This document shows positions 6,259-54,925 of a DNA stretch of 64,000 bases, piece after piece. The position numbers and the translations under genes were made by a program. The notes beneath the pieces were generated by a model that was not told the DNA's origin, searched no databases, and was given only the letters and a program-made list of their open reading frames with translations. Origin of the DNA: Aerophototrophica crusticola (GTDB lineage Bacteria > Pseudomonadota > Alphaproteobacteria > Azospirillales > Azospirillaceae); NCBI GenBank assembly GCA_001939945.1, contig MOEB01000012.1, positions 62,001 through 126,000 of the forward strand. Direction: 5' to 3'. How positions within the stretch are numbered: the first letter of the stretch is position 1; each line of letters opens with the position of its first letter.

Positions 6259-6276
6259 GGCGCGTCCACGGGCACC

Positions 6277-6327: not shown

Positions 6328-6458
6328 ACGCAAAAACGAACGGCAAGAGCCACTCCGGCGGACCCGGCCGGTTCCCATTCCCCGAACTCGTTGACCCGGA
6401 CAACGGACCCGGCGCAAAGTGCGCGCCCTGGGAGTGAACCGTTCAGGAACCGCCAACA

Positions 6459-40340: not shown

Positions 40341-41050
40341 GGCACCTTCAGGCTCGCGGTGACGCTGCCGGCCGCGAGGCCGGCGGGCCAGGGCAGCAGG
40401 AAGCGCCGGGTGGTCCCGGCCAGCAGGTTCTCCCCCGCCAGCCCCTCAAGCTGGTCGGCGGCCAGGGTCACGGTCTTGCCGCCGCCCTGCAGGGTCAGTG
40501 TCGGCTCCCGCAGGATCTGGCGGGAGGTGCCGCTGTTCCGCACCACCAGTTCCAGCCGGCCGTCGGCGGCCTTGCCGGCGGAGACGATGCCGACGCTGGG
40601 ACGCACGCCCTGGGGCATGACATAGAGGGAGGCCACATAGCGCACCAGCAGCCGCACCTGCCCGCCCTGGGGTGGTGCCTTGCCGATGTCCACCGGCAGC
40701 TGCTCCGCGATCAGGCGATAGGCCAGTTCCACGGGTGGGGCGGCGTTGCCCACCCACTGCACGCGGACGGACTGGTTCTGGCCGGGCTCCAGGATCACCT
40801 GCTCCGGGAAAACCACCCAGTCGTCCCCCGCCTCCGTCAGCACGTCCTGGCCGTCCGGGTCCTGGGCCCGGGCCATGACCTTGACCTCCACGGCCACGGG
40901 GTCCCGGTTCTCATTCTCCAGCCGGAAGATCTGGGTGGCGCCGCGGCCAGACGGCTCGAACTCCATCTCGATGGGCACGAGCCGGAAGGCGTGCGCCGGT
41001 ACCGGGGCCAGCAACAGCAGGGCAAGGGCGGCAAGGGCTTTCAGGCGCAT
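40337..41050 (-). CDS. fimbrial assembly chaperone (PapD-like)
   Basis: 237-aa periplasmic chaperone with a signal peptide (LAALALLLLAPVPAHA-FRL). The first Ig-like domain has FRLVPIEMEFEPSGRGATQI, the chaperone hallmark FRLENENRDPVAVEVKVM and FPEQVILEPGQNQSVRVQWV. The second domain has LVVRNSGTSRQILREPTL. It donates a strand to pilin subunits and hands them to the usher. It is upstream of and translationally coupled to the usher (GTGA). The ATG at 41050 is chosen; an in-frame GTG 7 codons earlier is possible. Confidence 0.88.
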   Translation of the reverse strand: MRLKALAALALLLLAPVPAHAFRLVPIEMEFEPSGRGATQIFRLENENRDPVAVEVKVMARAQDPDGQDVLTEAGDDWVVFPEQVILEPGQNQSVRVQWVGNAAPPVELAYRLIAEQLPVDIGKAPPQGGQVRLLVRYVASLYVMPQGVRPSVGIVSAGKAADGRLELVVRNSGTSRQILREPTLTLQGGGKTVTLAADQLEGLAGENLLAGTTRRFLLPWPAGLAAGSVTASLKVP

Positions 41051-41287
41051 GGGATGACCAGTTGAGTCCACAGGGCTACGCCCACCGCCGGGGGACCTGC
41101 CCGAACGGCCTGGGCGCGCATACCCGTCAGGATAAGGGATAGACGGAATCGGGTCACCAGCCCTGATGCACGAAATGGGGCATTTATTGGCCCTGTTGCC
41201 CGGAAAGTCATAACGCCAAAGTAGGAAGGCTATGGCCTGTTCGCTTCCCAGCGGCTATCTTCGCGCGCCACAGTAAGGAGCTGACAT

Positions 41288-41608
41288 ATGGCCGAGTCCG
41301 TGTCCCTGGCTGACGTGACGCATGCGACCTTCGAACCGCTGGTGGGGCAGCGCTTCGTGGTCCGCTGGCCCGACGTGACGGAAGAGCTGGTGCTTTCCAA
41401 TGTGAAGATGAGCCCGACAGACGGCGACCCCCGCCGCAAGCGGCTTCCCTTCTCGCTGTTCTTCAAAGGGACGACGCCGAACCTGGTGCTGAACCAGCAG
41501 ATGCACCCCATGGCCCATGAGGGCCTGGGCACGCTGGAGATCTTCATCGTCCCCATCGGGCAGGACCCGGACAATGGGACGATCCTCTACCAGGCCGCCT
41601 TCAGCTGA
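41288..41608 (+). CDS. DUF6916-like protein
   Basis: 106-aa beta-rich protein. It begins SLADVTHATFEPLVGQRFVV and has LPFSLFFKGTTPNLVLNQQM and HPMAHEGLGTLEIFIVPIGQ, the pattern of a small family that I place near DUF6916. Its members are often encoded beside tail-collar (MdpB-type) proteins, as here. A clear AAGGAG ribosome-binding site precedes the ATG. It is divergent from the chaperone and convergent with the GNAT gene. Molecular function unknown. Confidence 0.7.
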   Translation: MAESVSLADVTHATFEPLVGQRFVVRWPDVTEELVLSNVKMSPTDGDPRRKRLPFSLFFKGTTPNLVLNQQMHPMAHEGLGTLEIFIVPIGQDPDNGTILYQAAFS

Positions 41609-41674: not shown

Positions 41675-42295
41675 TCAGCCGGCGAGCCGGAGCCCCTGGT
41701 GGATCGGCCCGTCCTGCCATTTCATGGGGATGGAGGCGCGGTTGAAGCCGCCTTCCTCCGGCACGAAGCCGAAGCGGGCATAGAGGCGGCGGGCCGGGTT
41801 GGTCGGCTCCACGTTCAGGCTGATGCTGTACTGCATGGAGCGGGCGAGACGCAGCAGCGCGGCCAGTACCAGGCTGCCGATGCCCATCTCCCGGAAGTCC
41901 GGCAGGATCATGAACTCGAACAGCCGGCAGTCGCGCAGGCCGCCTGCCCCCCAGAACAGGTAGATGCGCCCCACGGGCTGCCCGTGGCGCAGGATGATGG
42001 CGAAGTCCGCGTCCGCGTAATGGGTCGCGTGGTGCAGGTACTGGTAGGCGAACTGCTTTTCCACGAAGTCGCGCTTCGTGTCGCGGTCCCACATGCTGCC
42101 CAGGGCCGTCATCTCCGCCGCGCGGCTGCCGGCGTAGAGGCGGCGGATGAAGGGGATGTCGTCCGGCGTTTCCGCGCGGAGGGTGATCCCGTGGCTGTCC
42201 ATCTCGGGCGTGGACGGCACCGGGAACCGCAGCGGGCGCGGGGCCCGCTGCGGGATGGCCACTCCCGGAAGTCGGAACGGCTCGTCGGCTTTCAT
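41675..42295 (-). CDS. GNAT-family N-acetyltransferase
   Basis: 206-aa acetyltransferase. After a 30-residue extension comes ITLRAETPDDIPFIRRLYAG, then FEFMILPDFREMGIGSLVLA (acetyl-CoA pyrophosphate loop REMGIG) and LNVEPTNPARRLYARFGFVP (the Asn-Pro-Ala-x2-Leu-Tyr motif). The close tail-collar genes (10 bp upstream) form one operon with it. This pairing recurs in microcystin-dependent-protein loci, suggesting it might modify a collar protein, but that is an inference. Substrate unknown. Confidence 0.85.
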   Translation of the reverse strand: MKADEPFRLPGVAIPQRAPRPLRFPVPSTPEMDSHGITLRAETPDDIPFIRRLYAGSRAAEMTALGSMWDRDTKRDFVEKQFAYQYLHHATHYADADFAIILRHGQPVGRIYLFWGAGGLRDCRLFEFMILPDFREMGIGSLVLAALLRLARSMQYSISLNVEPTNPARRLYARFGFVPEEGGFNRASIPMKWQDGPIHQGLRLAG

Positions 42296-42305
42296 GGCCC
42301 GCCGG

Positions 42306-42869
42306 TCAGTTCGGGTTGATCGGGTAATAGCCGTTCATGCAGATGCAGTAGTTCATCGCCACGAACGGCTGCCGGTTCTCGTGGCCCGTCGGCGCTGCCG
42401 CACCGGTGGGCTGGATCACGTTCGGGTTCATGTTGATGTTCGGCAGGACCGGGTCGAGAACAAAGGTGTTGACGTTGACGCTGTTGGAAAGCACGGATGA
42501 CCCAAGTGACAGCGGCGCGGTGGTAGCCGGACCGGGCGTCTTGCTCGCCGGGATCGTCGTAGTCGCCAGATTGGCCGTGTGGTTGTGGGCCGGCAGGTTC
42601 GTCTGGTTCAGGACGACGGCCTCGGTGCCGACCACCTGACCGACCGTACGCGTCGTCAGGCCGGGACCGGCCCCCTGGCCGATGGGCACGCAGCCCTGCA
42701 GGTTGGGCAGGTTGAAGGTCGTGCTGCCATTGCCGCCATAGCGGGTGGTCAGGATCGTGAACAGGGCCTGGTACTGGGCGATCTGCACGGTCGAACCGTT
42801 GCAATAGGCCCAGTCCATCGGCGCGTAATTGAAGCCGAAGATACGGATTTCGCCGGTGAACGCTTCCAT
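42306..42869 (-). CDS. phage tail-collar domain (MdpB-like) protein, paralog 1
   Basis: 187-aa protein with the collar-domain opening FTGEIRIFGFNYAPMDWAYC, GGNGSTTFNLPNLQGCVPIG and NLPAHNHTANLATTTIPA, and the closing NYCICMNGYYPINPN. The family includes microcystin-dependent protein MdpB of cyanobacteria and phage short-tail-fibre collars; it is usually a trimeric surface or tail protein. It has no signal peptide. It is the third of three tandem paralogs, 13 bp after the second. In this one the loop after NGSTV and the C-terminal half differ most. Confidence 0.88.
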   Translation of the reverse strand: MEAFTGEIRIFGFNYAPMDWAYCNGSTVQIAQYQALFTILTTRYGGNGSTTFNLPNLQGCVPIGQGAGPGLTTRTVGQVVGTEAVVLNQTNLPAHNHTANLATTTIPASKTPGPATTAPLSLGSSVLSNSVNVNTFVLDPVLPNINMNPNVIQPTGAAAPTGHENRQPFVAMNYCICMNGYYPINPN

Positions 42870-42882
42870 GTTCTCTGCCCCC

Positions 42883-43416
42883 TCACACGCGTGACGGATA
42901 AAGGCCCTGCACGCAGATCATGTAGGTGATCGGCAGGCTAGGCATCATGTTGTTGTGGGCAACACCGCTCCCGGTGTAGCCGACCACGTTGGCCGACATG
43001 GGGCGCAGTGCAGCGCCGGCCGCGGTGCTGTTCGGCACGAACTGCCCCATGCCGGCCTGCACGGTGCCCAGAAAAGCGTTGTTTGGGTTCTGGGAATTCG
43101 CCGGGGCGCTGGAAGCCACCATGGTATGGCTGTGGGCCGGAATATTGCCCACCGCGAGGCTCACCGTTTCGGTGCCCCCCGAGGCGCCCATGGCGCGGGG
43201 GGTCAGGTTGGTACCGGTGCCCTGTCCCATCGGCACGCGACCACGCAGGTCGGGGATGCCGAAATTGCTCGTCCCATTGCCGCCATACACCACACCCATC
43301 AGCGAGTAGAGGGCCGTGTACTGTTGGATGTCCAGGATGCTGCCGTTGCACTGCAGAAAGTCCTGCGGCGCGAAGATGCCGCCGAACATCCGGATCTCAC
43401 CCAGATAATAATCCAT
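42883..43416 (-). CDS. phage tail-collar domain (MdpB-like) protein, paralog 2
   Basis: 177-aa collar protein. YLGEIRMFGGIFAPQDFLQC, NGTSNFGIPDLRGRVPMGQG and NIPAHSHTMVASSAPANS align directly with its two neighbours, and it ends PSLPITYMICVQGLYPSRV. The HSH/HNH/HTH motif in the middle is the metal- or trimer-axis His cluster of collar domains. It lies between paralogs 1 and 3 in one operon with short gaps (13 and 30 bp). Identity between paralogs looks moderate, suggesting old duplication. Confidence 0.88.
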   Translation of the reverse strand: MDYYLGEIRMFGGIFAPQDFLQCNGSILDIQQYTALYSLMGVVYGGNGTSNFGIPDLRGRVPMGQGTGTNLTPRAMGASGGTETVSLAVGNIPAHSHTMVASSAPANSQNPNNAFLGTVQAGMGQFVPNSTAAGAALRPMSANVVGYTGSGVAHNNMMPSLPITYMICVQGLYPSRV

Positions 43417-43446: not shown

Positions 43447-43992
43447 TCAGTTCCGGGACGGGAAGACGCCGGTGGTGGCGATGCAGAAATTCACGACGGT
43501 GAACGGCTGCACATTGGCGTGCCCGGCGCCACTTCCGGTGGGGGCGATGGCTGCTGGGTCCAGGTTGACGATCTGGGCAGCGGTCGGGTTGGTGACGTAG
43601 GTCGGCTGCGTGCCGATCACGTCCGCGTAGATGTTCTGACGCAGCTGGGGGCTGGTCGCCGGAGCATCGGTCGCACCAAAGGCATGGGTGTGCGCCGGTG
43701 TTTGGGCCAAGGTGATCGCCACCGTCTCGGCACCGCCGGTGGTGCCGTTGGTGTAGTTGCTGACCACACCGTTTGGCTTGTTGTTGGGGAATGTAGTGAT
43801 ACCCAAAGCCACCCGCCCCTGCAGGTTGGGCAGGGCGAACTGGCTGCTGGTGCCGCCGAATTGGGTACCGATCAGGGCATACAGCGCCTGATTCTGGGCA
43901 GAGGCCAGCGTCTGCCCGTTGCACAGGGCCCAGTATTGAGGTGCCCAGCCATAGCTGAAAATCCTCAGCTCCCCGAGGAAACAATCTGTCAC
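43447..43992 (-). CDS. phage tail-collar domain (MdpB-like) protein, paralog 3
   Basis: 181-aa collar protein, first gene of the operon. FLGELRIFSYGWAPQYWALC, GGTSSQFALPNLQGRVALGI and TPAHTHAFGATDAP show the domain; the C-terminus is VNFCIATTGVFPSRN. It starts with GTG at 43992, with GGGAGGA a little upstream. The operon promoter must be in the AT-richer segment 43993-44270, where it diverges from the lasso precursor candidate. No phage structural genes accompany it, so it is not a prophage remnant as far as visible. Confidence 0.88.
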   Translation of the reverse strand: MTDCFLGELRIFSYGWAPQYWALCNGQTLASAQNQALYALIGTQFGGTSSQFALPNLQGRVALGITTFPNNKPNGVVSNYTNGTTGGAETVAITLAQTPAHTHAFGATDAPATSPQLRQNIYADVIGTQPTYVTNPTAAQIVNLDPAAIAPTGSGAGHANVQPFTVVNFCIATTGVFPSRN

Positions 43993-44270
43993 AGAGATCC
44001 TCCCTGGCTTATACGCGTCCGGTGGTATTAGCCGTTTGGCCCAGGGCGGGCCGATGAGAGATTGGCGGAGGGCATATGCCCCTGTCCAGAAGAAAGTTTT
44101 TCGGTCATATAAAGGCTATTTCCAATGGGTTGGCGCCACCCCATCCTTTTAGGAAGGAATCAACCATCCATGCTGCGGCAAGTCGAATGGCGGATGGCAA
44201 CAACTTGACAACCTCCTCAAAAGAAGTAATCCTGAGGCATCTCAGCAACCGTCAGCCAGGGCCACCCAGC

Positions 44271-44429
44271 ATGTCTCCCCTGATCAAGTCCGCAGATAAT
44301 GATACGGCGCCAACGAATCCGGCCAAGCTCGTGTGGCAACGGCCCAACATGATGGAAATCGACTTGGCTGGCGCGACCCTCGCAGGCGGACGCGTCGTTG
44401 CCGATGCCGATCCTAATAGAGCGTCCTAA
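44271..44429 (+). CDS. candidate lasso-peptide precursor
   Basis: 52-aa ORF below normal gene-calling size. The leader (1-37) contains VWQRPNMMEIDLAGATL. W22-x2-P25-x-M27 matches the YxxPxL leader motif bound by PqqD-like B1 proteins, and Thr36 is the penultimate leader residue required by lasso proteases. The predicted core is AGGRVVADADPNRAS: Ala1 would be joined to Asp8 (8-residue ring), leaving a 7-residue tail that ends in Ser. Ala1 and a terminal Ser also occur in paeninodin, which is phosphorylated there by an HprK-like kinase, and one is encoded here. The ribosome-binding site is weak (CAGGG). It is plus-strand, 295 bp before the oxygenase. The frame extends open upstream to 44076, so the start is uncertain. 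Confidence 0.65.
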   Translation: MSPLIKSADNDTAPTNPAKLVWQRPNMMEIDLAGATLAGGRVVADADPNRAS

Positions 44430-44436
44430 TAGAGCA
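44411..44436 (+). repeat. 13-bp tandem duplication at the end of the precursor core
   Basis: TCCTAATAGAGCG (44411-44423) is followed at once by TCCTAATAGAGCA (44424-44436), 12 of 13 bases identical. In the precursor frame the second copy reads TCC TAA TAG, giving the final Ser and two stops. Because 13 is not a multiple of three, removing one copy would carry the frame on through LGLVLLGS to the TAG at 44461. Confidence 0.9.
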
Positions 44437-44494
44437 TTGGGCCTTGTTCTCTTGGGCTCATAGCACCACCGAGTGATCTTTAGGGCATCAAATG

Positions 44495-44532
44495 GCGCAT
44501 CCCATTCCAAGTTTGGTTGGAATGGGATGCGC
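44495..44532 (+). terminator. long perfect hairpin downstream of the precursor
   Basis: GCGCATCCCATTCCAA (44495-44510) and TTGGAATGGGATGCGC (44517-44532) form a 16-bp perfect stem with a 6-base loop, followed by TTTGGTGCTTTGG. It lies 65 bp after the precursor stop. It could end the precursor transcript, protect its 3' end or act as an attenuator before the oxygenase gene. The rest of 44430-44723 is AT-rich with no gene I can support. Confidence 0.6.
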
Positions 44533-44723
44533 TTTGGTGCTTTGGATCATGGCAACTCGAATTTCTGTCATTATTATATTTTTTTTAATGCAGTGACGTA
44601 ATCCTGGAAGCAAAAGAATTTGCATCAGCGGCCGTGGAACGAAATGGTCGCAGGATGGCGGCAGCCAATCTTGGTAGTGTGGTACCTAATCCTTCGTTTG
44701 CAGCCACATTCTGAACTTTGACC

Positions 44724-45881
44724 ATGATCCCTTCTTTGGCCGACTTGCTGGTGCCACACCACACCGCCACTTTCAAAGCTGCTTTGCGGGACCGCAAACG
44801 GCTGCATTTGCCAACGAACAACCGTGACGCGTTCCAGAGATTGTTCCCTTGGTCGGCGTTGAACCAGCTGATTACCTGGGAAAAGCTGGTTCAGGGGCGG
44901 TGCCGCGCGGCCCGGCGGGGACGCGACTTGCCGCTGGAGATGCTGAGCGTCGTCGACAGGGATTTCCAGCGGCGGCTGGCTCCCGACCTATTGCAGCGTT
45001 TCTGCCATGAGGGGCTGAGCATCGCCGCGACCTGGATCGAGGATGATTTCCCGGCCATTGCAGCGCTGAATGCCATGCTGGAGCGAACGCTGGGGTGTGA
45101 GAGCCAGACCAACCTTTATGCCAGCTTCGGCAGGGAAAGCGCGTTCCGCGCCCATCATGACGGCCATGACGTGCTGGTCCTGCACCTGCATGGCCGCAAG
45201 CGCTGGTTCTGTTACGGCTACCAGGATGGCCCTCGGGCGGAAGGGGCCATGGTCCCTGAGTCTGAGTTGGGGGCGCCGGAGTGGGAGCATGTGCTGGAGC
45301 CCGGCGATATCCTGTTCATCCCGCGGGGCGACGTGCACCGTGCGTCCGTGGAAAGCGACGCCTGCCTGCACTTGGCCATCAAGCTTGGTTGGCCGCGCGG
45401 CACCGACCTGTTGCAGTGGCTCGCCAAAGAGGGGGCAACTGACCCGGTTCTGGACGCGGACGTCCCGGTATACGGCGGAACGGAGGAACTGGCGCAGCGC
45501 GAAGCGGAGTTGCGGGCGGCGTTGCGCCGGCTTGCCGACACACTGGACCTTCGGGCCTTCCTCGCCGGCCAGGATGCGGCCCGGTCGACGCTGTTGCCGT
45601 TGAACCTGGGCCTGTCGGCGGAACTCACCCCGGATACCTGGGTGCAGCCTACCCTTCGCCGCAAGCCGACCCTGCCGGCGGAAGGAGGGGCGACCATCAT
45701 CGTCAATGGGGTACAAGCCACCTTGGACCCCGCTGAACGGGCAATCCTGGCAGCCTTGTTGGAGCATGACGCCCTCCAACTCTCAGACATCGAATCCCGG
45801 GCGGGGTTGCCACCTTGGGAGACGCGGGATGCGGTGTCACGGCTGGCCCGCCGTTCTCTTGTCCTGCTGACCCGGGAATAA
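44724..45881 (+). CDS. JmjC/cupin-type 2-oxoglutarate oxygenase with winged-helix tail
   Basis: 385-aa protein resembling bacterial ribosomal-oxygenase-type JmjC enzymes (YcfD/RoxA). The metal triad is visible: His144-x-Asp146 in FRAHHDGHDVLVLHLHGRKR and His205 in FIPRGDVHRASVESDACLHL. The strand VLHLHGRKRWFCYG is typical of the family. A helical region and a C-terminal winged-helix-like part (ERAILAALLEHDALQLSDIE) follow, as in this class. Such enzymes hydroxylate protein side chains. Its position next to the precursor candidate suggests hydroxylation of the lasso peptide or its partner, which is an inference. The ATG at 44724 has no clear ribosome-binding site. Confidence 0.75.
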   Translation: MIPSLADLLVPHHTATFKAALRDRKRLHLPTNNRDAFQRLFPWSALNQLITWEKLVQGRCRAARRGRDLPLEMLSVVDRDFQRRLAPDLLQRFCHEGLSIAATWIEDDFPAIAALNAMLERTLGCESQTNLYASFGRESAFRAHHDGHDVLVLHLHGRKRWFCYGYQDGPRAEGAMVPESELGAPEWEHVLEPGDILFIPRGDVHRASVESDACLHLAIKLGWPRGTDLLQWLAKEGATDPVLDADVPVYGGTEELAQREAELRAALRRLADTLDLRAFLAGQDAARSTLLPLNLGLSAELTPDTWVQPTLRRKPTLPAEGGATIIVNGVQATLDPAERAILAALLEHDALQLSDIESRAGLPPWETRDAVSRLARRSLVLLTRE

Positions 45882-46014
45882 GGGCCGTCCTCCTCCATGA
45901 CGCTCGGATTGATGGTACTGCCCAGTTTGGCCCCGTCCACGGGGCCGGCACCGGAGCGTGCGAACTGCCCGCTCAGTCGGCTAGACAGGTAGTAAACCGC
46001 TGTCAGGAATCTCC

Positions 46015-47160
46015 TCAGAGTCGGTTCAGGGTTGGGCTACGTAGGACATCTGCCGGGAAGTTGACCGGGAAGGGTCCAATGCGCAGGGGGGCAATACTGC
46101 CAAGCGGCACACCGATGATCGCGTTCCCTGGGCCCACAACGCCGCCGCGCCATTTATTCATGCTGTCTGGCACAGCAGCCGAAATGGGAAGACGGGAAGC
46201 CTGGTCCGCCACGGGGTCAATCACGAGGATATCCATGGCCATCGACGGGATGCCGTAGATGCGGCCGTCTGGGCCCAGTACGCCGCCCGCCCATTTCGAT
46301 GTGCCGACCAAGGCGGGGCCAAAGCTTTCCCGCGTCGCGGTGTCTGCGACTGGGTCGATGATCAGGATGTCCGTGGCGTTGAAGGGGATGCAGAAGATGC
46401 GGCCGTCAGGGGCCAGCACGCCGCCGGCCCACTTGTTCCCGTCCGTCAGCGCCGCCCCCATGGATGTCCGGATGGCGCTGCCCGTGGCCGTGTCGATCAC
46501 CAGGATGTTCGGGGCGTTATAGGGGATGCCATAAATCCGCCCATCCGGCCCGGGAACGCCGCCCCGCCACTTCAAGGTGCCGGACAGGTCTGCCCCCAGG
46601 CAGCTGCGCGTGGCCGTGCCGGCCGCCGGGTCGATCACTAGGATGTCCGGGGCGGTTCCGGGAATGCCATAGACCTTGCCATCGCTTCCCAGCACCCCGC
46701 CCTGCCATTTGGTCTGCTCGGCCATGACGGCGCCCAGGGGGGTGCGGGTCGCCGTGCCGGCCATGGGGTCGATGACCAGGATGTCCGCCGCGTTATTCGG
46801 GATGCCGTAAATCATGCCGTTAGGCGCCAACACGCCCCCGAACCATTTACCCTGGTCTGCCATGGAGATACCGGGGGCCAGCCGGGTGGCTTGACCTGCC
46901 GGATCGATGACCAGGATGTCTGGCGCGCCGAAGGGGATGCAGAATGCCCTGCCGTCCGGTGCCAGCACGGCGCCCGACCAGGAATCCGTTGGCGTCGCCG
47001 TGTAACCAGCAAGCAGCCCTGCCGTCACATGGCGCCCCATCCCGGGCATCAAGGCGGCAGGGCGGGCCAGAGCGTGGGCCAGGGGGGTTCCCGTAAAGGT
47101 CGGGTTGTGCGATGGCGCCAGCCCGGACAGGTCCGGCCGGGGGGGATGGTGATAGGGCAT
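46015..47160 (-). CDS. beta-propeller-like repeat protein, unknown function
   Basis: 381-aa protein built from about seven repeats of roughly 45-48 residues. Each has the pattern KWxGGVLxPDGRIYGIP, then A-x-DILVIDPxAG, TATR and a short helix (LGAxL). The N-terminal 45 residues are non-repetitive (PSHNPTFTGTPLAHALA). The periodicity and DG/ID turns suggest a seven-bladed propeller. There is no signal peptide. It is on the same strand as the lasso operon, 153 bp after the cyclase, but an AT-rich gap separates them. It may bind a product or be an unrelated acquired gene. The ATG at 47160 follows GGGGG. Confidence 0.7.
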   Translation of the reverse strand: MPYHHPPRPDLSGLAPSHNPTFTGTPLAHALARPAALMPGMGRHVTAGLLAGYTATPTDSWSGAVLAPDGRAFCIPFGAPDILVIDPAGQATRLAPGISMADQGKWFGGVLAPNGMIYGIPNNAADILVIDPMAGTATRTPLGAVMAEQTKWQGGVLGSDGKVYGIPGTAPDILVIDPAAGTATRSCLGADLSGTLKWRGGVPGPDGRIYGIPYNAPNILVIDTATGSAIRTSMGAALTDGNKWAGGVLAPDGRIFCIPFNATDILIIDPVADTATRESFGPALVGTSKWAGGVLGPDGRIYGIPSMAMDILVIDPVADQASRLPISAAVPDSMNKWRGGVVGPGNAIIGVPLGSIAPLRIGPFPVNFPADVLRSPTLNRL

Positions 47161-47312
47161 CACGGCGCCCCCGTGTCTGCGATCCCGGACAAGGGTCCGT
47201 TTTTCTCCTCACGCATGGCCCGATCCTCCTCTGCCGCGTTGCTTCGGCAGGGTTAATCGGAAATAGGTAAATTGTCAAGCGTTAGAGAAATTATAGGACC
47301 TTGGGCGCATCG

Positions 47313-49247
47313 TCAGGCATTTCCGCCTGATGCGCGGCGCGTGAACAGCCCTGCCGACAAGCCGCGAGCCAGTTTCAGATGAAACCGCATGGTTGAGGTC
47401 CAATTGTCAGGCTGTGCCGTCTCAAGTGTTTCCGCCAAGTGCCGGAGCGACTGCAGATCAACCAGATCCGTGCAGGCCGGCGTTCCGGCTTGGCGGGCCA
47501 GTTCCTCCTGGATGGCCGGCTTGGCCTTCAGGAAGACCTCCTTCCAATCCGCGGCCTGTAGCCCGACCAACCTGTCATCCAGCACCTCCGCCGGGATGCG
47601 GCTGTCGAACGCGCGGCGGAACACGTCCTTACAGCGCCCCCCGCGAAGGAAGCGGTCCGCCGGCATGGCCAGGCAGAACTCCAAAACGCGCCGGTCCGCG
47701 GTGGGATCGCGGCGGTCCACGCCATACCCAGCGTTGGCTGCGGCGTTCAGCGGCCCGCCGTCCATCAAGCTAAAGATCAGAGCGCTCCATTCTTGCCAGC
47801 GCCTGACCTTGGTGGGAACCGGTTCGTCCTTCCAGGCATCCCGGCCCAGGCCCAGCTCCTCCAGCCTGTCCAGACGCACGGGATACAGATCCACCGGGGG
47901 TTTGTCCGTGCCCTTGTAACGTCGCCACAGGGCCGGCAGCGCCTCCGGGATCCAGGGGCGGAGGGCCGACCGCAAGGCCGCGGCCCGGCTGCGGCGCACC
48001 CCCTCCGCCGCCAGCACGCCTGCGTCCCGCCATAGGGAAAACCAACGCAGCCGCCGCGCATGCTCGGCCAACAGGTGCTCGCCGGTATAGGTCAGGGCCA
48101 TGTTGCCCCGGATGCCGGACAGCACGACGGGCAGTTTCTCCTTCCCGGCCGCTGCATAGATCAGGTGCATCCAGGCCGTGTTGGCCGGGTTCATCACCGG
48201 CTGGTCGGCCAGGAAGATCATCTTCTCGATCACTGGCACCAGCTCGGCATCGAAGGCGCGGACCAGCCGGTGGTCGATGTTCGGGTGGCGTGCCGCCACC
48301 AGCGCCGCCTGGGGCCCCTCGTCCACCTTCAGGCCCGCCCGATAGGGAACGGTGCCCGGCAGGGGCACGCTGGTGAAGGCGGTCAGGCGCTTGCCCTCCG
48401 CCGCCAGCAGCGGCGCCGCGCTGGTGGCCACGGCAGCACTGTCCAGGCCACCGCTCAGCATCATGGCGGTGCCGCCCGTGTTCCGCAGCCGGGCCTTGAC
48501 CGCGAGGTCCAGCGCCTCCCGCAGCCCATCGGCATAATCCTCCTCCCGCGCCAGCCGGCGGAGGGGGATGGCCGCCGCGTCCCAGTGGCGGCGGGTTCGG
48601 ACCTGGCCGTCCGCCGTCACCACGGCCAGGTGGCCCGGCTCCACCCGGCTCACCCCCTTGTAGAAGCTGCGCGACCCCACCAGGGGTTGCAGCATCTGCC
48701 ATGTGGCAAGGCGTACCGGATCGGGTCCGGTGGGGACATCGGGCAGGGCGAGCAGCCCCTTGGGCATGCTGGCGAAGGCGAACCAGCCCTGGCCGGCATG
48801 GTAATGCAGGGGACGCCCATCCAGATGGTCGCGGGCCAGCAGCAGGGTACGGTTGTCCGCGTCCCAGGCCGCGAAGGCGAAATCCCCGTTCAGCCTGTCC
48901 AGCGCCCCCTCGCCCCAGCGCTCCAGCGCCGCCAGGATGAAGGCCGCGTCGCACATCAGCGCCTGTTCCGCCGGCGCGATTCCCAGGGCGCGACCCAACT
49001 CTTCCCGGTTGTCGATGCGGCAGTCGGCCACCAGCGCCAGCCGGCCGCCCTTGCCCAACAAGGGCTGGCGATCAAAACGGTCCTCCGGCAGGAAGCGCAT
49101 CAGCCGGTGGCCCAGCGCCACCTCGCCCCCGTCCCACAACCCGTCCCGGTGCGGGCCGTACAGCGCCTGGGCCCGGCTGACCCGGTCGCAGTCCCGCAGG
49201 GCGCCGGGGCGGCCGCCCGGGTACCAGACCCCGGCGATGGCGCTCAT
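47313..49247 (-). CDS. lasso-peptide cyclase (C protein, asparagine synthetase-like)
   Basis: 644-aa protein in two parts: an N-terminal glutamine-amidotransferase-like domain (MSAIAGVWYP, about 1-200) and an AsnB-type ATP domain with the PPi loop LSGGLDSAAVA (265-270). Ser replaces the catalytic Cys2, so it cannot use glutamine. Lasso cyclases instead activate the Asp/Glu side chain of the core with ATP, and the peptide amine closes the ring. The start overlaps the kinase stop (ATGA). Together with the B1, B2 and exporter genes this supports lasso C over a housekeeping asparagine synthetase. Confidence 0.85.
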   Translation of the reverse strand: MSAIAGVWYPGGRPGALRDCDRVSRAQALYGPHRDGLWDGGEVALGHRLMRFLPEDRFDRQPLLGKGGRLALVADCRIDNREELGRALGIAPAEQALMCDAAFILAALERWGEGALDRLNGDFAFAAWDADNRTLLLARDHLDGRPLHYHAGQGWFAFASMPKGLLALPDVPTGPDPVRLATWQMLQPLVGSRSFYKGVSRVEPGHLAVVTADGQVRTRRHWDAAAIPLRRLAREEDYADGLREALDLAVKARLRNTGGTAMMLSGGLDSAAVATSAAPLLAAEGKRLTAFTSVPLPGTVPYRAGLKVDEGPQAALVAARHPNIDHRLVRAFDAELVPVIEKMIFLADQPVMNPANTAWMHLIYAAAGKEKLPVVLSGIRGNMALTYTGEHLLAEHARRLRWFSLWRDAGVLAAEGVRRSRAAALRSALRPWIPEALPALWRRYKGTDKPPVDLYPVRLDRLEELGLGRDAWKDEPVPTKVRRWQEWSALIFSLMDGGPLNAAANAGYGVDRRDPTADRRVLEFCLAMPADRFLRGGRCKDVFRRAFDSRIPAEVLDDRLVGLQAADWKEVFLKAKPAIQEELARQAGTPACTDLVDLQSLRHLAETLETAQPDNWTSTMRFHLKLARGLSAGLFTRRASGGNA

Positions 49248-50161
49248 GCCGCACCCCCGGCGACCAGCCCTTCCACATAGGCGGCAAGGGCATCCAGGCG
49301 GCCCAGGTCCCGCGGGCGCCTCAGGGAATAGACGGGCACCGCTGCCGCCAGGGCCGTGGCCCAGCGGAAGATGGTGGAACCCTGGCCCATGAAGGTGCCG
49401 AGCCGGACACGAAACACGTGGCGGTGCAGTGCCGCCGCGGCGATGCCGGGGGACAGCCGCTCCGCCACCGGGCCGTCCTCCGCCGGATCGCCCGACAGGA
49501 CCACCACGGCCCCCAGCGGGCGCGGCCTCCCCTCGAACCGGGCATCCAGGCCGATGGTGAACTTGTCCTCGCCCGACGTCACCCGCGCCTCCTCGGCGGT
49601 GGGGTCGCCGAAGGCCTCGGCAGCCTCCGCCCACAGCCGCAGTGTGGGGAGGCTGGGATGGAGCAGCAGGGTGGCGGGGTCCACCACGACCTGGTCGTCG
49701 CTCAACAGCCGGTGGCCCCGCTCCAACAGGGCGCGGGCCGTGGTGCTTTTGCCGGCACCGGAGTCGCCGGCGATGGCCACGGCGGCGCTACCCACCGCGA
49801 TGGCGCTGGCATGCAGCGGCGGCGTGCCCCTCTGGTGCAGCAGCATGCCGAGGCCGGGGCCGAGCAGCCAGGTCTGCAGCGTCTGGCGGTCCACGCCGTC
49901 CGGTACCTCCACCCGCAGGGACCGGCCCCTGTCCAGGCGGAAGCGGATGCCCTGGGGCGAGCGCAGCACGCAGCTCCCGTCCGCATAGACGTGGAAATGC
50001 GGCTTGGCCCTGACACAATCGGCCGCCGGCTCGGGCAGCGGCCCGAAGGACAAGGCCACGTCGGCAGGCCGATCCCCCGGCGCGCCGGGCAACAGCGGCA
50101 GCGCCGCCGCCGACTCAAGCACCAGGCCGCAATAGCCGTATCGATGAACCGCGGTCACCAC
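49244..50161 (-). CDS. HPr kinase-like protein kinase of a RiPP cluster
   Basis: 305-aa HprK-family protein. After a variable N-terminal half with LHQRGTPPLHASAIAV comes the P-loop GDSGAGKST (132-140) and the SDD motif of HPr kinases (LLSDDQVVVD, 154-156). Relatives in paeninodin-type clusters add phosphate to the C-terminal Ser of the precursor. It starts with GTG, overlaps the sulfotransferase end by 7 bp and overlaps the cyclase start by 4 bp. It lacks the HPr-kinase oligomer features, so phosphotransferase-system control is unlikely. Confidence 0.85.
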   Translation of the reverse strand: MVTAVHRYGYCGLVLESAAALPLLPGAPGDRPADVALSFGPLPEPAADCVRAKPHFHVYADGSCVLRSPQGIRFRLDRGRSLRVEVPDGVDRQTLQTWLLGPGLGMLLHQRGTPPLHASAIAVGSAAVAIAGDSGAGKSTTARALLERGHRLLSDDQVVVDPATLLLHPSLPTLRLWAEAAEAFGDPTAEEARVTSGEDKFTIGLDARFEGRPRPLGAVVVLSGDPAEDGPVAERLSPGIAAAALHRHVFRVRLGTFMGQGSTIFRWATALAAAVPVYSLRRPRDLGRLDALAAYVEGLVAGGAA

Positions 50162-51156
50162 GCTACCCCATCCGCCCGCCCGCGCAGGCTCTCCAGTCGC
50201 TCAAAAGGGTCTCGAATCCAGTCCCGGGCCAGGTCCGCCACCTCCTCCGTCACGGCGGCGCGCTTGCGCGCGCCGTCGGGGCTGAAGGGGCGGGTCCCCG
50301 TGGGATCCTTCGCATGTCTGCCTGCCGCGAGCGCAAGCCGGGCCTCCGCATCCCCGCCAAGGGGGACGCGGAGGTGGGGGGCGACCTGCCCTGCGATGGC
50401 CCCCGGCAGGGCGCCATAGGGCACCAGCAGCCAGCGCCCGGGCGGGTTGCGGCCGACACTGGCGGCCACCTCGGCGAGGACCCGCCCCACCACCTGCGCG
50501 GCGAAGGCCAGGGGTGAGCGGGGCGCCCGCGATGGTGCGACGCCGAGGAACAACCCGGCCCGGACCGGGTCCGCCGCCCAGCGCAGCCACATGGGCGGGG
50601 CATCGCGGAGGGAGACGAGGATCTCCTCCGGCTCCCGGTAGACGAAGACCAACGGCGCCGCCGGGAAGGCTGCCTCCAGCAGGGGGAGATGCAGGGCGTT
50701 CCAGCTCGACAGCTTCAGGATGAAGCGGTCCCTTTCCCCCGGCGCGGCGCGGCCAAGGGCGGCCACCACCTGCTCCACCGCCCGCCGCCTCACGGCCACG
50801 CGGGCAAAGGCCCAGGCCCCGGCGGGGGCGAGCGCGTCGTTCAGGGCCTGCGGCTCGGACAGCACGTGGCAACCGGGCAGCAGTGACAGGCTCCGGGATA
50901 CTAAGGTGGAACCGCAGCGCCCGGCGTGCAGGATCAGCCCGGCCGGGGCCGAGGCGGGATGCTCCCCCGCTTCGGGCAGGGGGGCTTGCCATGCGGTCCT
51001 GCCCTTGGCCTCCGCTGCCGCGATCCGGTCGGACAGGAAAGGCAGGGCCGGGTCGGTGCCGGCGATGTCCACCCAATCGGCCGTGACCTGGTCCCGCTCC
51101 AGGTACAGGCGGGACGGGACCGGGCTGGCCGGCTGCACGGTGGCCGACAGGCTCAT
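50155..51156 (-). CDS. sulfotransferase-family protein of the lasso cluster
   Basis: 333-aa protein with the 5'-phosphosulfate loop HAGRCGSTLVSRSL (77-90) and a later FVYREPEEILVSLRDA (about 171-186), which matches the 3'-phosphate region of PAPS-dependent sulfotransferases. The N-terminal 60 residues are family-specific. It would transfer sulfate from PAPS to a hydroxyl or amine, and the target is not known. Its ATG overlaps the B2 stop (ATGA), and its end overlaps the kinase start, so it is an integral operon member and a candidate tailoring enzyme. Confidence 0.78.
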   Translation of the reverse strand: MSLSATVQPASPVPSRLYLERDQVTADWVDIAGTDPALPFLSDRIAAAEAKGRTAWQAPLPEAGEHPASAPAGLILHAGRCGSTLVSRSLSLLPGCHVLSEPQALNDALAPAGAWAFARVAVRRRAVEQVVAALGRAAPGERDRFILKLSSWNALHLPLLEAAFPAAPLVFVYREPEEILVSLRDAPPMWLRWAADPVRAGLFLGVAPSRAPRSPLAFAAQVVGRVLAEVAASVGRNPPGRWLLVPYGALPGAIAGQVAPHLRVPLGGDAEARLALAAGRHAKDPTGTRPFSPDGARKRAAVTEEVADLARDWIRDPFERLESLRGRADGVAW

Positions 51157-51608
51157 GTCAGGCGCCCCATGTCGGCCAGCGGGCGATAACCCTCCGCCTC
51201 CTCGCCGCCCAGCAGCACCATGTCCCCCAGCAGCAGCCAGGCATGGGCCTCCAGATTGCCCTCCCGCTTGCGCACGCCGATGCGGACGACACCGCCGGCG
51301 ATGGCGCGCCGGGCGAGCAGCAGCTTGCCCGCCACCGCCCGGACCAGGCAGGTGCTACGCCAGGGAAGGCGGGCCGCGACCCGAGCCAGCCGGCGGACGG
51401 CCACGCGGGCGCGGTCCAGGTCATGGCCGGGCAGGGGGGCCGCCGCTGCTTCCGGCACCCGGGGGGTCCCGAACAGCCGCCCCGTCCACCGGATCGGCAG
51501 CACGAAGACCAGCAGCCAAGCCAGGACCAGGGCAAGCCCCGCCTCCGCCCACAGCAACCACCGGACAAGGCCGGCGCCGGGGCGGTTCGCGCCTTTCGGC
51601 GGGTTCAT
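51153..51608 (-). CDS. lasso-peptide leader protease (B2, transglutaminase-like)
   Basis: 151-aa protein with an N-terminal TM (LLWAEAGLALVLAWLLVFVL, about 18-38) and a small transglutaminase-like domain. It has Cys87 in LPWRSTCLVRAVAGKLLLAR and His122 in NLEAHAWLLLGDMVLL, the catalytic Cys and His of the B2/McjB protease family; the third residue is unclear by eye. B2 proteins cut the leader after the penultimate Thr pair while the core is folded. It overlaps the methyltransferase and sulfotransferase genes by four bases each. Split B1 and B2 genes are typical of many lasso clusters. Confidence 0.85.
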   Translation of the reverse strand: MNPPKGANRPGAGLVRWLLWAEAGLALVLAWLLVFVLPIRWTGRLFGTPRVPEAAAAPLPGHDLDRARVAVRRLARVAARLPWRSTCLVRAVAGKLLLARRAIAGGVVRIGVRKREGNLEAHAWLLLGDMVLLGGEEAEGYRPLADMGRLT

Positions 51609-52732
51609 GGGGACTGGGGCGGCGGGCCGCCCTCCAGCCACAGCCAAAGGCGTTGGTCGGAGCGGGAGCCTGCGACGCGGAACCCATGCCCGCCCGTTTC
51701 CACGACAGGCCGGGCCAGCGGGTAGCTCCGTACCTCCCAACAGGACATGGGCAGGGAGCCGGGCCGGTTCTCATAGCCGAGCCCCGGCGAGCCTTCCGGG
51801 TCCATGTCCAGGCGGATCCATTGCAGGACGGTATTGGCCGGGCCGCCGGTTCCCTCCACGGCGACCGACGCCTTGGCGCCGGGCCAGCTGTCCGGCCGAC
51901 CCAGGTCGAAGGTGAACAGGGGCGCCGCCGTGGAGCGGAGCGCGATGGATGGGTTTTCCACCCGGCGGTTCAGGGGGGCGGGGCGTATGGCGTTGAAGGG
52001 GGAGATGTCGAATCCGCTGGTGACGCCCATGGCCGTGGCTTCCAGCGCCGCGTCGTGCCCCAGAGCGGTCATTACGCTGATCCTGCCCGGGATGACCCGC
52101 CCGCCGTCGCGCAGCAACCGGGGGACTAGGTCCCGGTGTGTGGCCAGCACCTCCTCCTCCAGCAGGCCGTTCGACACGATCTCGGACACGATCACGTCGG
52201 CCTTGCGCGGAAGGTCGGTCCCGAGGACCAAGTCGCCCGAATGCCTGGGCAGGATGCGCACCGTGTCGGACCACCCGTTCCGGCGGACGATGCGATCGGC
52301 GATGGCCGCGACCAGCGGCACCATCTCGCAGGCATAAACGGCGCCGGCACCCGCCCTGGCAGCCATCATCCCCAACAGGCCGGAACCGGCACCCACGTCC
52401 AGCACCAGGTCCCCCGGCGTGACCGCGCCGCGGATCGCCGCCTCATAGGCGTCGTTGCGCCCGGTGTCGGTCACCATGAACCAGTGCCAAGTGGGAACCC
52501 ATTGGCGAAGGGTGGTCCGGACGAAGGTGGCCGCTTCCTCACCCGCATCCACGCGGTCCAGCACGGCCAGCGACAGCACGGCGGCGTCCATGGCCTTGCC
52601 CTTGGCGGACAGGACCTGCGCGAAGCCGGCCCAGTCGAGTGCCGACCGGCTGCGCAACAGGGGCCACCGGGCCAGCACCTCATCCAGCGTCGGGAGCAGC
52701 GGATCGGCCGGGGGCATCGCGGGGTTCGTCAT
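51605..52732 (-). CDS. PRMT-like SAM methyltransferase of the lasso cluster
   Basis: 375-aa protein. The N-terminal 85 residues are family-specific. Then comes the SAM domain with motif I LVLDVGAGSGLLGMMAAR (109-126), acidic Glu136 in YACEMVPL, and the double-Glu loop of protein arginine methyltransferases, SEIVSNGLLEEE (Glu184 and Glu193, spaced nine as in PRMT1). A beta-barrel-like second half follows. The core candidate has two Arg (R4, R13), so Arg methylation is the obvious prediction. It lies between PqqD-like B1 (16 bp gap) and B2 (ATGA overlap). Automated names for this type often say ribosomal L11 methyltransferase. Confidence 0.75.
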   Translation of the reverse strand: MTNPAMPPADPLLPTLDEVLARWPLLRSRSALDWAGFAQVLSAKGKAMDAAVLSLAVLDRVDAGEEAATFVRTTLRQWVPTWHWFMVTDTGRNDAYEAAIRGAVTPGDLVLDVGAGSGLLGMMAARAGAGAVYACEMVPLVAAIADRIVRRNGWSDTVRILPRHSGDLVLGTDLPRKADVIVSEIVSNGLLEEEVLATHRDLVPRLLRDGGRVIPGRISVMTALGHDAALEATAMGVTSGFDISPFNAIRPAPLNRRVENPSIALRSTAAPLFTFDLGRPDSWPGAKASVAVEGTGGPANTVLQWIRLDMDPEGSPGLGYENRPGSLPMSCWEVRSYPLARPVVETGGHGFRVAGSRSDQRLWLWLEGGPPPQSP

Positions 52733-52748
52733 GGCACGCGACTGCCGC

Positions 52749-53027
52749 TCAGCCCTGGACGCGAATCAGCTTCTTGTCCAGCATCTGGCCGAGCAGGCCC
52801 AGAACGTCCCGCTCGATCACCTCCGCCGGGGCGTCATACCGTTCGCCCAGTGACCGGCAGAGGGCGGCAACTTCCCGCGGCTCCGCCAAGCCCTTCCAGA
52901 TCTCGGAGCCGATGCCGTCCAGGTTGAAGTAACGGCCGCTGTCCATGTCCATCATGACCATCTCCCCGTCGATCTCGGTGGAGAGCAGGTCGGCGTTCAC
53001 CGTCACGATGCTGGTAAGCTGGATCAT
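52749..53027 (-). CDS. PqqD-like leader-binding protein (B1 / RRE)
   Basis: 92-aa winged-helix RiPP recognition element. LLSTEIDGEMVMMDMDSGRY and FNLDGIGSEIWKGLAEPREV are the strand and helix features of PqqD/lasso B1, with MLDKKLIRVQG as the closing wing. It binds the precursor leader near YxxPxL and guides it to B2. I chose ATG at 53027 over the adjacent GTG. It is upstream of the methyltransferase, and 104 bp separate it from the exporter end. Confidence 0.88.
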   Translation of the reverse strand: MIQLTSIVTVNADLLSTEIDGEMVMMDMDSGRYFNLDGIGSEIWKGLAEPREVAALCRSLGERYDAPAEVIERDVLGLLGQMLDKKLIRVQG

Positions 53028-53134
53028 CACCGCGTCGTCCCAATTGGAGTACCGCTTCCTTCTAACCGCCCGCCGGTGCGCTGTCTATGCGGCGGGCAGC
53101 CTTGGCGGGCAGACGGGCGGCGGCTCCCTTCTTG

Positions 53135-54925
53135 TCACAGGGCGGCCGCGGCACCGGTCGGGATCCGCGCGTCCTCCACCCGCCCGTCCCGCAGCCGGAT
53201 CACGTGGTCCGCCATGGCGATGGTGGAAGGGCGGTGGGCGACCAGCAGCAGGGTCAGGCGCCCGTGCAGCCGGCGCAGGGCATCCAGCACCCGTTCCTCC
53301 GTGTCAGTGTCCAGCGCGCTCGTCGCCTCGTCCAGGACGAGCAGGTCCGGGGCCGTCAGCAACGCCCTGGCCAGCGCGACCCGCTGGCGCTCCCCGCCGG
53401 ACAGTCGCGTCCCGCGGTCCCCCACGACGGTATCCAGCCCCTGTGGCAGGGTCCGGACAAACCCGGCTGCCGCATCCTCCAGGGCCCGCCAGAGGGCCGC
53501 GTCGTCCGCGTCGGGCCGCGCCAGCAGCAAGTTGGCCCTGATACTGTCATGGAACAGGAAGGGGTCCTGGGGCACGTAGGCCAGGCGGGACCGCCAAGCC
53601 ACGCGGGCAGGCCCGTCCAGGGGCACCCCGTCCACCAGCACCGCGCCCGCCGTGGGGGCGACCAAGCCCATGACCAGGTCCGCCAGGGTGGACTTGCCGG
53701 CACCGGACGGGCCCACCAGGGCCGTCGTGGCGAAGGCCGGGATGCGTGCGGTCACCCCCGACAGGGCGGGCGCACGCTCCCCCGCATGGCGGTAGCCCAC
53801 GGCTTCCAGGCTGATCCCCTGGCGCAGGACCGGGGCCGGGTCGGCCGGCCGTGGCTCGGCGGCGGCCCGGCAGGCCTGCAATTGGGCCTGCAGCGCCGCA
53901 TGGATGGGTCCTACCCGCAGCACCTGCCGCCAGCTTTCCTGGAGCCGGTTGCCGACCATGGCCAGCCGGGCGAACAGGATGACGAGGCCCAGCAGTTCCG
54001 ACAGGGCGAGGCCCGCCAGCCGCGTGCCACCCCACAGGGCAATGGCCAGGAAGGCGGCAGCCAGAACCGACTGGATCAAGCGGGCGGCAGCCAGGGCCAT
54101 GGCCTGCCGTCGGCGGGCGTCGCCCAATGCCTGGGCCTTGGATACAAGCGACGCGGCCCCCCGCGATTCGGCCCGCAGCACCTTCAGCATGCGGAACCCG
54201 GCAAGCTGGTCGGCAACTTCCGCATGCACCGCCCGGTGGAAGTGCATCTGGGCCGTGGCCAGCGCGTGGGCCCGCCGGTTCAAGGGCAGCACCAGGAGCG
54301 ACAACCCGCCCAGCAGCACCAAGGCACCGCCAGTCGCCAGGGGCGACAGGGCAACCGCCGCCGCCAGCAGGATCGGGAGCTGGGCCAGCAGCGCCGAAAA
54401 GCGCAGCAACTGCTCCACGGCATAGGAAACCTGCCCCACCTCACCGACCAGCGCATGCACCAGGGTGGTCGGCCTGCGCATCGGTTCGGCCCCCCAACCC
54501 ATGCCGAGCACCGCCGCGTGCATGCGGAACCGCAACGCGTCGCCATAGGCGACGACAAGGTCGTTGCTCACCACGGCGAAGGCGAAGACGACCCCGGCGG
54601 ACAGGGCCACCGCGCCGACGAACAGGGCCAGTGCGCCGCCAAGGCCCAGCACCTCGCCCAAGGCCGCCAACGGCCCCGGTGTGGCGCCTCCCACCAAGCC
54701 CAGCATGTGCAGGATGGGGACGAGCATCAGCAGGCCCGCGCCCTCGGCCGCAGCGGCGGCCAAGGCCAGTGCCCCCGCCAGCCACAGCCGGCGCCCGCAG
54801 GTGGCCACCACGTCGCCGGCCAAGCCGCGCACCTCTGCCAGGCCGCGGCGCAGACGCCCCGCCATTTCCAGATCGCCGACCACCGCTCCCCCAAAGGGCT
54901 TCCCGTCCACGGCCACACTTGCCAT
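53135..54925 (-). CDS. ABC exporter (lasso D-type), fused permease and ATPase
   Basis: 596-aa half-transporter. Six TMs lie in about 60-300 (GALALAAAAAEGAGLLMLVP, ALFVGAVALSAGVVFAFAVV and others), then an ATPase with Walker A GPSGAGKST, Q-loop YVPQDPFLF, signature LSGGERQRVALARAL and Walker B LLVLDEATSALD. It has no N-terminal peptidase domain, as in McjD-type exporters that give self-immunity by pumping out mature lasso peptide. First gene of the minus-strand operon. The ATG at 54925 is chosen; the reading frame extends further upstream without homology-like sequence. Confidence 0.85.
   Translation of the reverse strand: MASVAVDGKPFGGAVVGDLEMAGRLRRGLAEVRGLAGDVVATCGRRLWLAGALALAAAAAEGAGLLMLVPILHMLGLVGGATPGPLAALGEVLGLGGALALFVGAVALSAGVVFAFAVVSNDLVVAYGDALRFRMHAAVLGMGWGAEPMRRPTTLVHALVGEVGQVSYAVEQLLRFSALLAQLPILLAAAVALSPLATGGALVLLGGLSLLVLPLNRRAHALATAQMHFHRAVHAEVADQLAGFRMLKVLRAESRGAASLVSKAQALGDARRRQAMALAAARLIQSVLAAAFLAIALWGGTRLAGLALSELLGLVILFARLAMVGNRLQESWRQVLRVGPIHAALQAQLQACRAAAEPRPADPAPVLRQGISLEAVGYRHAGERAPALSGVTARIPAFATTALVGPSGAGKSTLADLVMGLVAPTAGAVLVDGVPLDGPARVAWRSRLAYVPQDPFLFHDSIRANLLLARPDADDAALWRALEDAAAGFVRTLPQGLDTVVGDRGTRLSGGERQRVALARALLTAPDLLVLDEATSALDTDTEERVLDALRRLHGRLTLLLVAHRPSTIAMADHVIRLRDGRVEDARIPTGAAAAL

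Follow-up and report, generated by a model that had tools for sequence, protein, structure and literature searches.

A kinase-bearing lasso-peptide gene cluster in Aerophototrophica crusticola with candidate tailoring genes and an adjoining tail-collar module

We analysed a stretch of 64,000 nucleotides of Aerophototrophica crusticola DNA (assembly GCA_001939945.1, contig MOEB01000012.1, positions 62,001 to 126,000; hereafter the window) and found that positions 44271-54925 almost certainly hold a lasso-peptide gene cluster of the kinase-bearing kind, as judged from gene content and motifs. A complete lasso set is present, namely a precursor (A), a leader-binding protein (B1), a leader peptidase (B2), a cyclase (C) and an ABC exporter (D), together with an HprK-like kinase (K). 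A methyltransferase (MT) resembling protein arginine methyltransferases (PRMTs), a putative sulfotransferase (ST) and a JmjC oxygenase are encoded among them, and the most surprising part of the cluster is a group of tail-collar genes next to the precursor. On balance we favour, with some reserve, a lasso cluster of the kinase type whose linear precursor would be phosphorylated, hydroxylated, sulfated and methylated on arginine, and which is linked to this collar module; we infer every chemical step, the order of the steps and the role of the module from the genes and their recurrence in related loci (loci and genomes are numbered L and G below).

The lasso gene set and its precursor

The genes of the cluster are as follows.

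44271..44429, plus strand: lasso precursor A, 52 amino acids, leader with WQRP and Thr at -2 (homologues in L141, L142 and L114)
44382..44426, plus strand: core peptide AGGRVVADADPNRAS, with predicted ring Ala1-Asp8 and C-terminal Ser15 (core rules)
44724..45881, plus strand: JmjC oxygenase, NO66/MINA-like, with HxD..H triad (JmjC_2, motifs)
47313..49247, minus strand: C, lasso cyclase, AsnB-like (Pfam and NCBIfam profiles, SGGLDS)
49244..50158, minus strand: K, HprK-like kinase with His, Lys and Asp-Asp (Hpr_kinase_C, motifs)
50155..51156, minus strand: ST, candidate sulfotransferase with motifs of the 3'-phosphoadenosine-5'-phosphosulfate type (motifs, homologues)
51153..51608, minus strand: B2, leader peptidase (NF033537, C87/H122/D129)
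51605..52732, minus strand: MT, PRMT7-like methyltransferase with E184/E193 (PDB match, predicted fold)
52749..53027, minus strand: B1, PqqD-like leader-binding protein (PF05402)
53135..54925, minus strand: D, ABC exporter (ABC_tran)

From 54925 downward the minus strand reads exporter, B1, MT, B2, ST, K and C, while the plus strand carries the precursor at 44271-44429 and the JmjC gene, which starts with ATG at 44724. An earlier note, made from the sequence alone, had given each of these genes its right place and strand. It had also described one operon with overlapping starts and stops, which holds for four of the six junctions, all with 4-nucleotide overlaps (ATGA for MT/B2, B2/ST and K/C, GTGA for ST/K), but not for the other two, since 16 nucleotides separate B1 from MT and 107 separate the exporter from B1.

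The profile checks that the note had called for support the lasso assignment. B2 passes the lasso B2 model of NCBIfam (NF033537, 72.2 bits, cut-off 33) and possesses Cys87, His122 and Asp129, which we take to be its catalytic triad. B1 passes PqqD (PF05402, 69.9 bits, cut-off 23.4), and its best NCBIfam matches are lasso PqqD models, with scores under their cut-offs. The kinase and the exporter pass Hpr_kinase_C (37.1 bits, cut-off 33.3) and ABC_tran (106.6 bits, cut-off 25), respectively. For C the outcome is mixed: it passes Asn_synthase (110.6 bits, cut-off 21) and GATase_7 and contains SGGLDS, without Cys2, but its best NCBIfam match, the lasso cyclase model NF033535, scores 287 against a cut-off of 525. 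The note had held that B1, B2, C and D beside a precursor define a lasso cluster, and had named as refuting outcomes the failure of B1 or B2 against their profiles and the lack of a co-occurring small precursor gene. Neither was observed, because both proteins pass and a small precursor gene fitting the lasso rules co-occurs with such clusters.

The precursor follows all the lasso rules tested, with a WxxP leader, a Thr at -2, which is a lasso rule, and an acidic residue at core positions 7-9; its predicted core is AGGRVVAD-ADPNRAS. Leader motifs of the forms YxxP and W/Y/LxxP are described in PMC12710340. Homologous precursors lie at the same position in three related clusters, two of them in genome G003 (L141, AGGAVSAD-QDPNQRS; L142, AGGAVSAD-QDPNEPS) and one in Azospirillum sp. 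TSH100 (L114, identical to L143, ANSNAVAD-QDPNQTASG), and the four cores have Asp10 and Asn12 in common. Searched for in its own genome, the precursor occurs only as the window copy, and a precursor scan of genome contigs found no relative.

A wider set of 39 precursors was assembled from loci with lasso or collar genes, by picking small open reading frames near these genes on position, a W/Y-x(1-3)-P leader motif and a low share of R, P, C, W and H, mostly without a C-terminal filter; the L117 precursor alone was picked under a Ser-ending filter, that of L024 came from a separate screen, and the near copies L120, L143 and L145 were omitted. A Thr anchor could be placed in 37 of the 39, 13 to 15 residues past the Trp in 36 and 17 residues past it in one. 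Core position 8 is Asp or Glu in 25 of the 37 anchored precursors, the next best position reaching 11, and in none of 20,000 shuffles did any position reach 25. A C-terminal Ser is present in 34 of the 39. Both features are as expected for a macrolactam ring of eight residues and for kinases that act on a C-terminal Ser. In L127, two lasso precursors (6232-6396 and 7709-7873) have near-identical leaders and the cores NGSSGAFD-GTGFS and AGGPGTID-GGIFS.

Several observations on the precursors weigh against this assignment. The window precursor has no match among the library models, curated lasso precursor models included. Two precursors of the set (L055 and L151) have no Thr anchor, 12 of the 37 anchored ones have neither Asp nor Glu at core position 8, the TSH100 core ends in SG rather than S, and position 1 is often Asn, Val, Thr, Ile or another residue instead of Gly or Ala, which speaks against some of the candidates. 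Such unusual first residues, the shortness of the cores and the missing precursor-model match would be expected if the same trio of PqqD, transglutaminase and AsnB proteins made another ribosomally synthesised and post-translationally modified peptide (RiPP), such as one that stays linear or is closed in another way. We consider this very improbable, as B2 passes the lasso B2 model and the Thr at -2 and the acidic residue at position 8 recur as they would in lasso macrolactams.

Candidate tailoring enzymes

The earlier note had proposed four tailoring enzymes. Profiles and motifs uphold the kinase, the PRMT-like methyltransferase and the JmjC oxygenase, whereas the sulfotransferase is a candidate on account of its motifs and of homologues that pass Pfam; all four may act jointly on the peptide.

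K contains the His of LHAS (115), the Lys of GAGKST (134) and an Asp-Asp pair (153). A His-Lys-Asp-Asp motif and the need for a C-terminal Ser have been reported for lasso kinases (PMC8498205, PMC9266682), so that K likely belongs to this kind, its likeness to PadeK and SyanK being one of described motifs and not of compared sequences. In the kinase comparison, which leaves out the L114 row, Glu replaces the first Asp of the pair in L141 and L142. Paeninodin (PadeK), ThcoK, SyanK and pseudomycoidin share with the window the HprK-like kinase, the C-terminal Ser of the precursor and the His-Lys-Asp-Asp motif (PMC8498205, PMC9266682); compared with phosphorylated lasso clusters of the paeninodin kind, the window adds the PRMT-like methyltransferase, the sulfotransferase, the JmjC oxygenase and the collar module.

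MT passes Pfam PrmA (36.4 bits, cut-off 22) and matches PRMT7 and PRMT9 in the PDB at E=1e-29 to 1e-23 (PRMT7, E=1.2e-29). Its structure model, built from an alignment with 12 relatives, reached a mean predicted local distance difference test (pLDDT) score of 86.7, and all 50 matches listed by the predicted-fold search, out of 779 at E<=0.001, are PRMTs. In the alignment to PRMT7, residues E184 and E193 fall on two glutamates that we take to be the catalytic double-E pair of PRMTs. The modelled protein is of the PRMT type, as it combines the S-adenosylmethionine domain, the double-E loop and the barrel fold. Both glutamates are kept in the four lasso-linked methyltransferases (window, L021, L022 and L024). 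Scanning with the MT alignment yielded at least 47 loci. Judged by the gene set of the window, none of these is a lasso locus (C was matched singly in L078, and JmjC in L093); most of the PRMT-like proteins encountered thus have no lasso genes next to them.

The JmjC protein passes JmjC_2 (PF08007, 72.8 bits, cut-off 22), matches NO66 (E=6e-12) and has an intact H144-D146, H205 triad. ST contains the motifs HAGRCGSTL and YREPEEILVS, presumably the 5'-phosphosulfate-binding and 3'-phosphate-binding motifs, and its homologues in L171 (32.1 bits) and L169 (31.1 bits) exceed the Sulfotransfer_3 cut-off of 27. A further homologue (L143 13967-15004, NZ_CP039640.1) is publicly annotated as an aspartyl/asparaginyl beta-hydroxylase, although by motifs and relatives it is more likely a sulfotransferase. 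ST accompanies JmjC in all five loci of the window type (window, L114, L141, L142 and L024). A second sulfotransferase (ST2) adjoins a 2-oxoglutarate (2OG) oxygenase (OG2) in seven of seven loci (L021, L046, L057, L113, L114, L128 and L130), two of which, L128 and L130, lack lasso genes over the stretch read, and L171 has two sulfotransferases with an Asp/Asn beta-hydroxylase. That oxygenase and sulfotransferase genes mostly occur together suggests a hydroxylation followed by a sulfation. Since Ser15 is the sole hydroxyl residue of the window core and is needed by K, a hydroxyl made by JmjC would be the target of ST. We give hydroxylation by JmjC and sulfation by ST roughly even chances each. 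Against them count a Sulfotransfer_3 score of ST just under the cut-off (25.4 bits), the absence of any PDB match of the ST profile at E<=1, a single-sequence structure model of ST that is unusable (pLDDT 40), and the ST-family genes of L169 and L182, beside which the models used found no oxygenase.

Related clusters give the gene set more depth. Plasmid p1 of Azospirillum sp. TSH100 (NZ_CP039640.1) carries A, JmjC, C, K, ST, B1, B2 and ABC as in the window, with the three collar genes, GNAT and DUF6916; unlike the window, it has a second sulfotransferase with a 2OG oxygenase, and the SG core end noted above. In G003 the same A, JmjC, C, K, ST, B1, B2 and ABC genes, plus MT, occur on separate contig fragments and are presumably linked. 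L024 (G010:C26:1-18000) is an apparently decaying cluster ordered C-JmjC-A-ST-K-B1-MT, whose proteins are 27-33% identical to those of the window and in which B2 was not found; its third-position G+C is below that of its neighbours and it adjoins an open reading frame that is transposase-like by eye. On a plasmid of Azospirillum oryzae (L145, NZ_CP054615.1), a lasso cluster is accompanied by a collar module, JmjC, three further oxygenases of the 2OG type and a nucleotidyltransferase, near glycosyltransferase genes.

According to the pathway that we favour, B1 would bind the leader at its WQRP motif, and the tailoring would take place on the linear precursor: K would phosphorylate the C-terminal Ser15, JmjC would hydroxylate one residue (all four homologous cores retain Asp10 and Asn12), ST would then sulfate this hydroxyl, and the methyltransferase would methylate Arg4, Arg13 or both. 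B2 would cut after Thr-Leu, C would form the Ala1-Asp8 amide around the tail and D would export the product, with which the collar module, divergent from the precursor, would probably act outside the cell or at its surface. For the unmodified lasso form of the window core, the calculated [M+H]+ is 1437.72.

This pathway has to be weighed against a plain phosphorylated lasso cluster of the paeninodin or SyanK kind, in which only K acts on the peptide, and the methyltransferase, the sulfotransferase and the oxygenase serve surface polysaccharide or the collar proteins, or are passengers. Such a cluster would account for the placement of MT, for which the stretch read of TSH100 gave no match and whose position varies among the other clusters. 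An MT homologue of G007 (L023) stands alone among housekeeping neighbours without lasso genes and has Gln for the second catalytic Glu. The core arginines (Arg4 and Arg13 in the window, Arg5 in L024) do not track the enzyme either: a comparison by eye did not bear out a core Arg as predictor of MT, since L022 has MT without a core Arg, and L117 and L119 have the Arg without MT. Moreover, polysaccharide genes surround the clusters of TSH100 and A. oryzae. Arginine methylation of the precursor by MT has, in our judgement, about as much for it as against it. On the other side, MT, ST and K of the window belong to the same run of 4-nucleotide overlaps as B2 and C, JmjC, ST, K and MT are found again with C and B1 in L024 despite the low identity, and ST never parts from JmjC in the window-type loci. 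We hold the plain phosphorylated cluster to be possible, though unlikely, and retain the multiply tailored peptide.

Tailoring of lasso precursors by an oxygenase or a methyltransferase is known from canucin A (CanE) and from lassomycin and StspM (PMC8498205, PMC9266682). CanE is a different Fe/2OG enzyme that acts on the C-terminal Asp, whereas the oxygenase of the window is a JmjC protein, and StspM makes a C-terminal methyl ester, whereas the methyltransferase of the window is PRMT7-like. A sulfotransferase gene adjoins some lasso clusters of Firmicutes (PMC8498205). For Pontixanthobacter and Allopontixanthobacter, a table of halotolerance-linked gene clusters (PMC10040529) lists a lasso B2, a nucleotidyltransferase, a sulfotransferase, an aspartyl beta-hydroxylase, a hypothetical protein, a sulfotransferase domain protein, PqqD and an Asn synthase, near-consecutive by their cluster numbers; the trio listed near a lasso B2 matches the sulfotransferase pair and beta-hydroxylase of L171, those rows hold no PRMT, and the available part of the paper has no discussion of a pathway. 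JmjC-RRE fusions and bacterial JmjC homologues occur in RiPP-like contexts (PMC12710340), and one predicted lasso producer is reported in Acetobacteraceae (PMC8776678). Sulfation and arginine methylation do not appear in the available part of a list of lasso modifications (PMC13352647). In the open literature we found no description of lasso-peptide sulfation or of PRMT-type arginine methylation, the search on sulfation and JmjC being too broad to be exhaustive. The earlier note knew of no described example with all four tailoring enzymes, and we likewise found none there. If the tailoring is real, the product would be a lasso peptide bearing as many as four kinds of added group, with sulfation and PRMT-type methylation of arginine among the modifications.

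The collar module

The coordinates of the earlier note were exact for the lasso genes but fall short of the conserved unit, which runs left to 41288 and takes in three collar genes, a GNAT gene and a DUF6916 gene, its least expected part.

44038..44052, minus strand: inverted repeat GGCCC-GCCCT-GGGCC upstream of c1 (kept in L141, L142 and L114)
43447..43992, minus strand: tail-collar protein c1 (Pfam Collar 76.6 bits, c1 tree branch)
42883..43416, minus strand: tail-collar protein c2 (Pfam Collar 86.8 bits, c2 tree branch)
42306..42869, minus strand: tail-collar protein c3 (Pfam Collar 87.4 bits, c3 tree branch)
41675..42295, minus strand: GNAT acetyltransferase (Acetyltransf_1 46.2 bits)
41288..41608, plus strand: DUF6916 protein (PF21880), end of the module (over the PF21880 cut-off at window 41318-41602, G000:C24:103318-103602)

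The collar proteins match the collar of the phage T4 short tail fibre protein gp12 by profile (E=1.4e-7), but they are about 180 amino acids long and form three ordered paralogues beside GNAT and DUF6916. Homologues of the DUF6916 protein pass Pfam, and the inverted repeat is the sole exact match to GGCCC-N5-GGGCC within the window. Where further genes of a phage tail or tailocin might be expected beside the collars, the genes tested against families are GNAT, DUF6916 and the lasso cluster; the rest of the window was judged by eye, with no PHROGs search. When the 126 collar proteins of 42 triplets are placed on a tree, the position labels change 8 times, against 60.2 in shuffles, so c1, c2 and c3 are old paralogues whose order has largely been kept, a pattern suggestive of a heteromeric complex.

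How closely this module belongs to the lasso genes was assessed in its own family and beyond it. Among 53 family loci, drawn from B2, MT and listed collar matches and hence not a random set, the models used found 29 complete collar triplets (L022 and L127 count as two-gene loci here, although tblastn finds three collar genes in each), and 23 of these 29 are accompanied by at least two of B1, B2, C and K. Of the 24 precursors that share a locus with collar genes, 17 are placed upstream of collar 1 and oriented divergently to it, 15 of them with no modelled gene between. Along the cyclase tree (51 rows), at least 9 changes of the collar label are required (10 were counted), spread over very divergent cyclases; the shuffled mean is 16, so the label is also clustered, and some 'no' rows end at contig edges. 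These repeated changes indicate that the lasso-collar pairing is recurrent. A further locus of this kind outside the family, in G035 (L169), was reached via DUF6916.

Alternatively, the module could be a self-contained set of surface genes, brought near lasso clusters by a common genomic hot spot and functionally unconnected with them. That all collar triplets are part of lasso clusters was rejected, because triplets without lasso genes exist both among DUF6916 loci and among collar loci. Within the 82 family genomes, B2 gives 33 matches in 27 genomes and Collar has matches in at least 77, and of 11 complete triplets chosen for having no nearby B2, 5 have other lasso genes and 6 have none. Beyond the family the pairing is rarer: at the class level, B2 has 35 matches in 28 of 289 genomes, and the module accompanies one of the 20 B2 loci fetched outside the family. 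DUF6916 has 52 matches in 44 of 398 genomes at the phylum scale, and among the 20 loci fetched, only 3 have at least two lasso genes (L169, L171 and L177) and 2 have one. Furthermore, 9 of 12 inspected collar loci without lasso genes (L166, L167, L168, L173, L175, L176, L128, L131 and L132) adjoin a giant repetitive protein of about 1,500 to 2,700 amino acids (some cut by the stretch), probably extracellular, which hints at a surface role. Set against the 23 triplets beside lasso genes, the divergent precursor-collar pairs and the recurrence over distant cyclases, these numbers make an independent module a serious contender, to which we give somewhat less than an even chance.

A bolder idea, which we regard as improbable, is that in Azospirillaceae and some other Alphaproteobacteria the collar proteins would form a secreted or surface heterotrimer, modified by GNAT and helped by DUF6916, and that the multiply charged lasso peptide (phosphate, sulfate, methyl-Arg) would be the ligand, the warhead or the structural tip of a phage-tail-like particle and not a free antibiotic. 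More generally, the pairing suggests that, for some lasso peptides of proteobacteria, the role may be other than that of a free antibiotic. In the open literature we found neither a lasso cluster with collar proteins nor a paper on DUF6916, for which the recurrent pairing with collar triplets offers a first testable setting. The precursor, the enzymes and the module form a compact set suited to expression in laboratory strains.

A second lasso cluster and neighbouring genes

The same genome, G000, which comprises 6.06 Mb in 328 contigs, has a second lasso cluster (L052, G000:C1:255501-275500) with ABC, B2, B1, C and K and the core GSSLPNSD-DGQTANNAFPNPGGAS; no collar module lies within the 20 kb read. 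In the window, one gene stands between the cyclase and JmjC genes, and no homologue of it was found among the other loci compared.

46015..47163, minus strand: repeat protein, perhaps a beta-propeller (DUF6923, sub-threshold)

On the far side of the collar module, the region adjoining DUF6916 (window 37803-41071) encodes, as judged by eye, one large protein that resembles outer-membrane ushers and one that resembles pilus chaperones.

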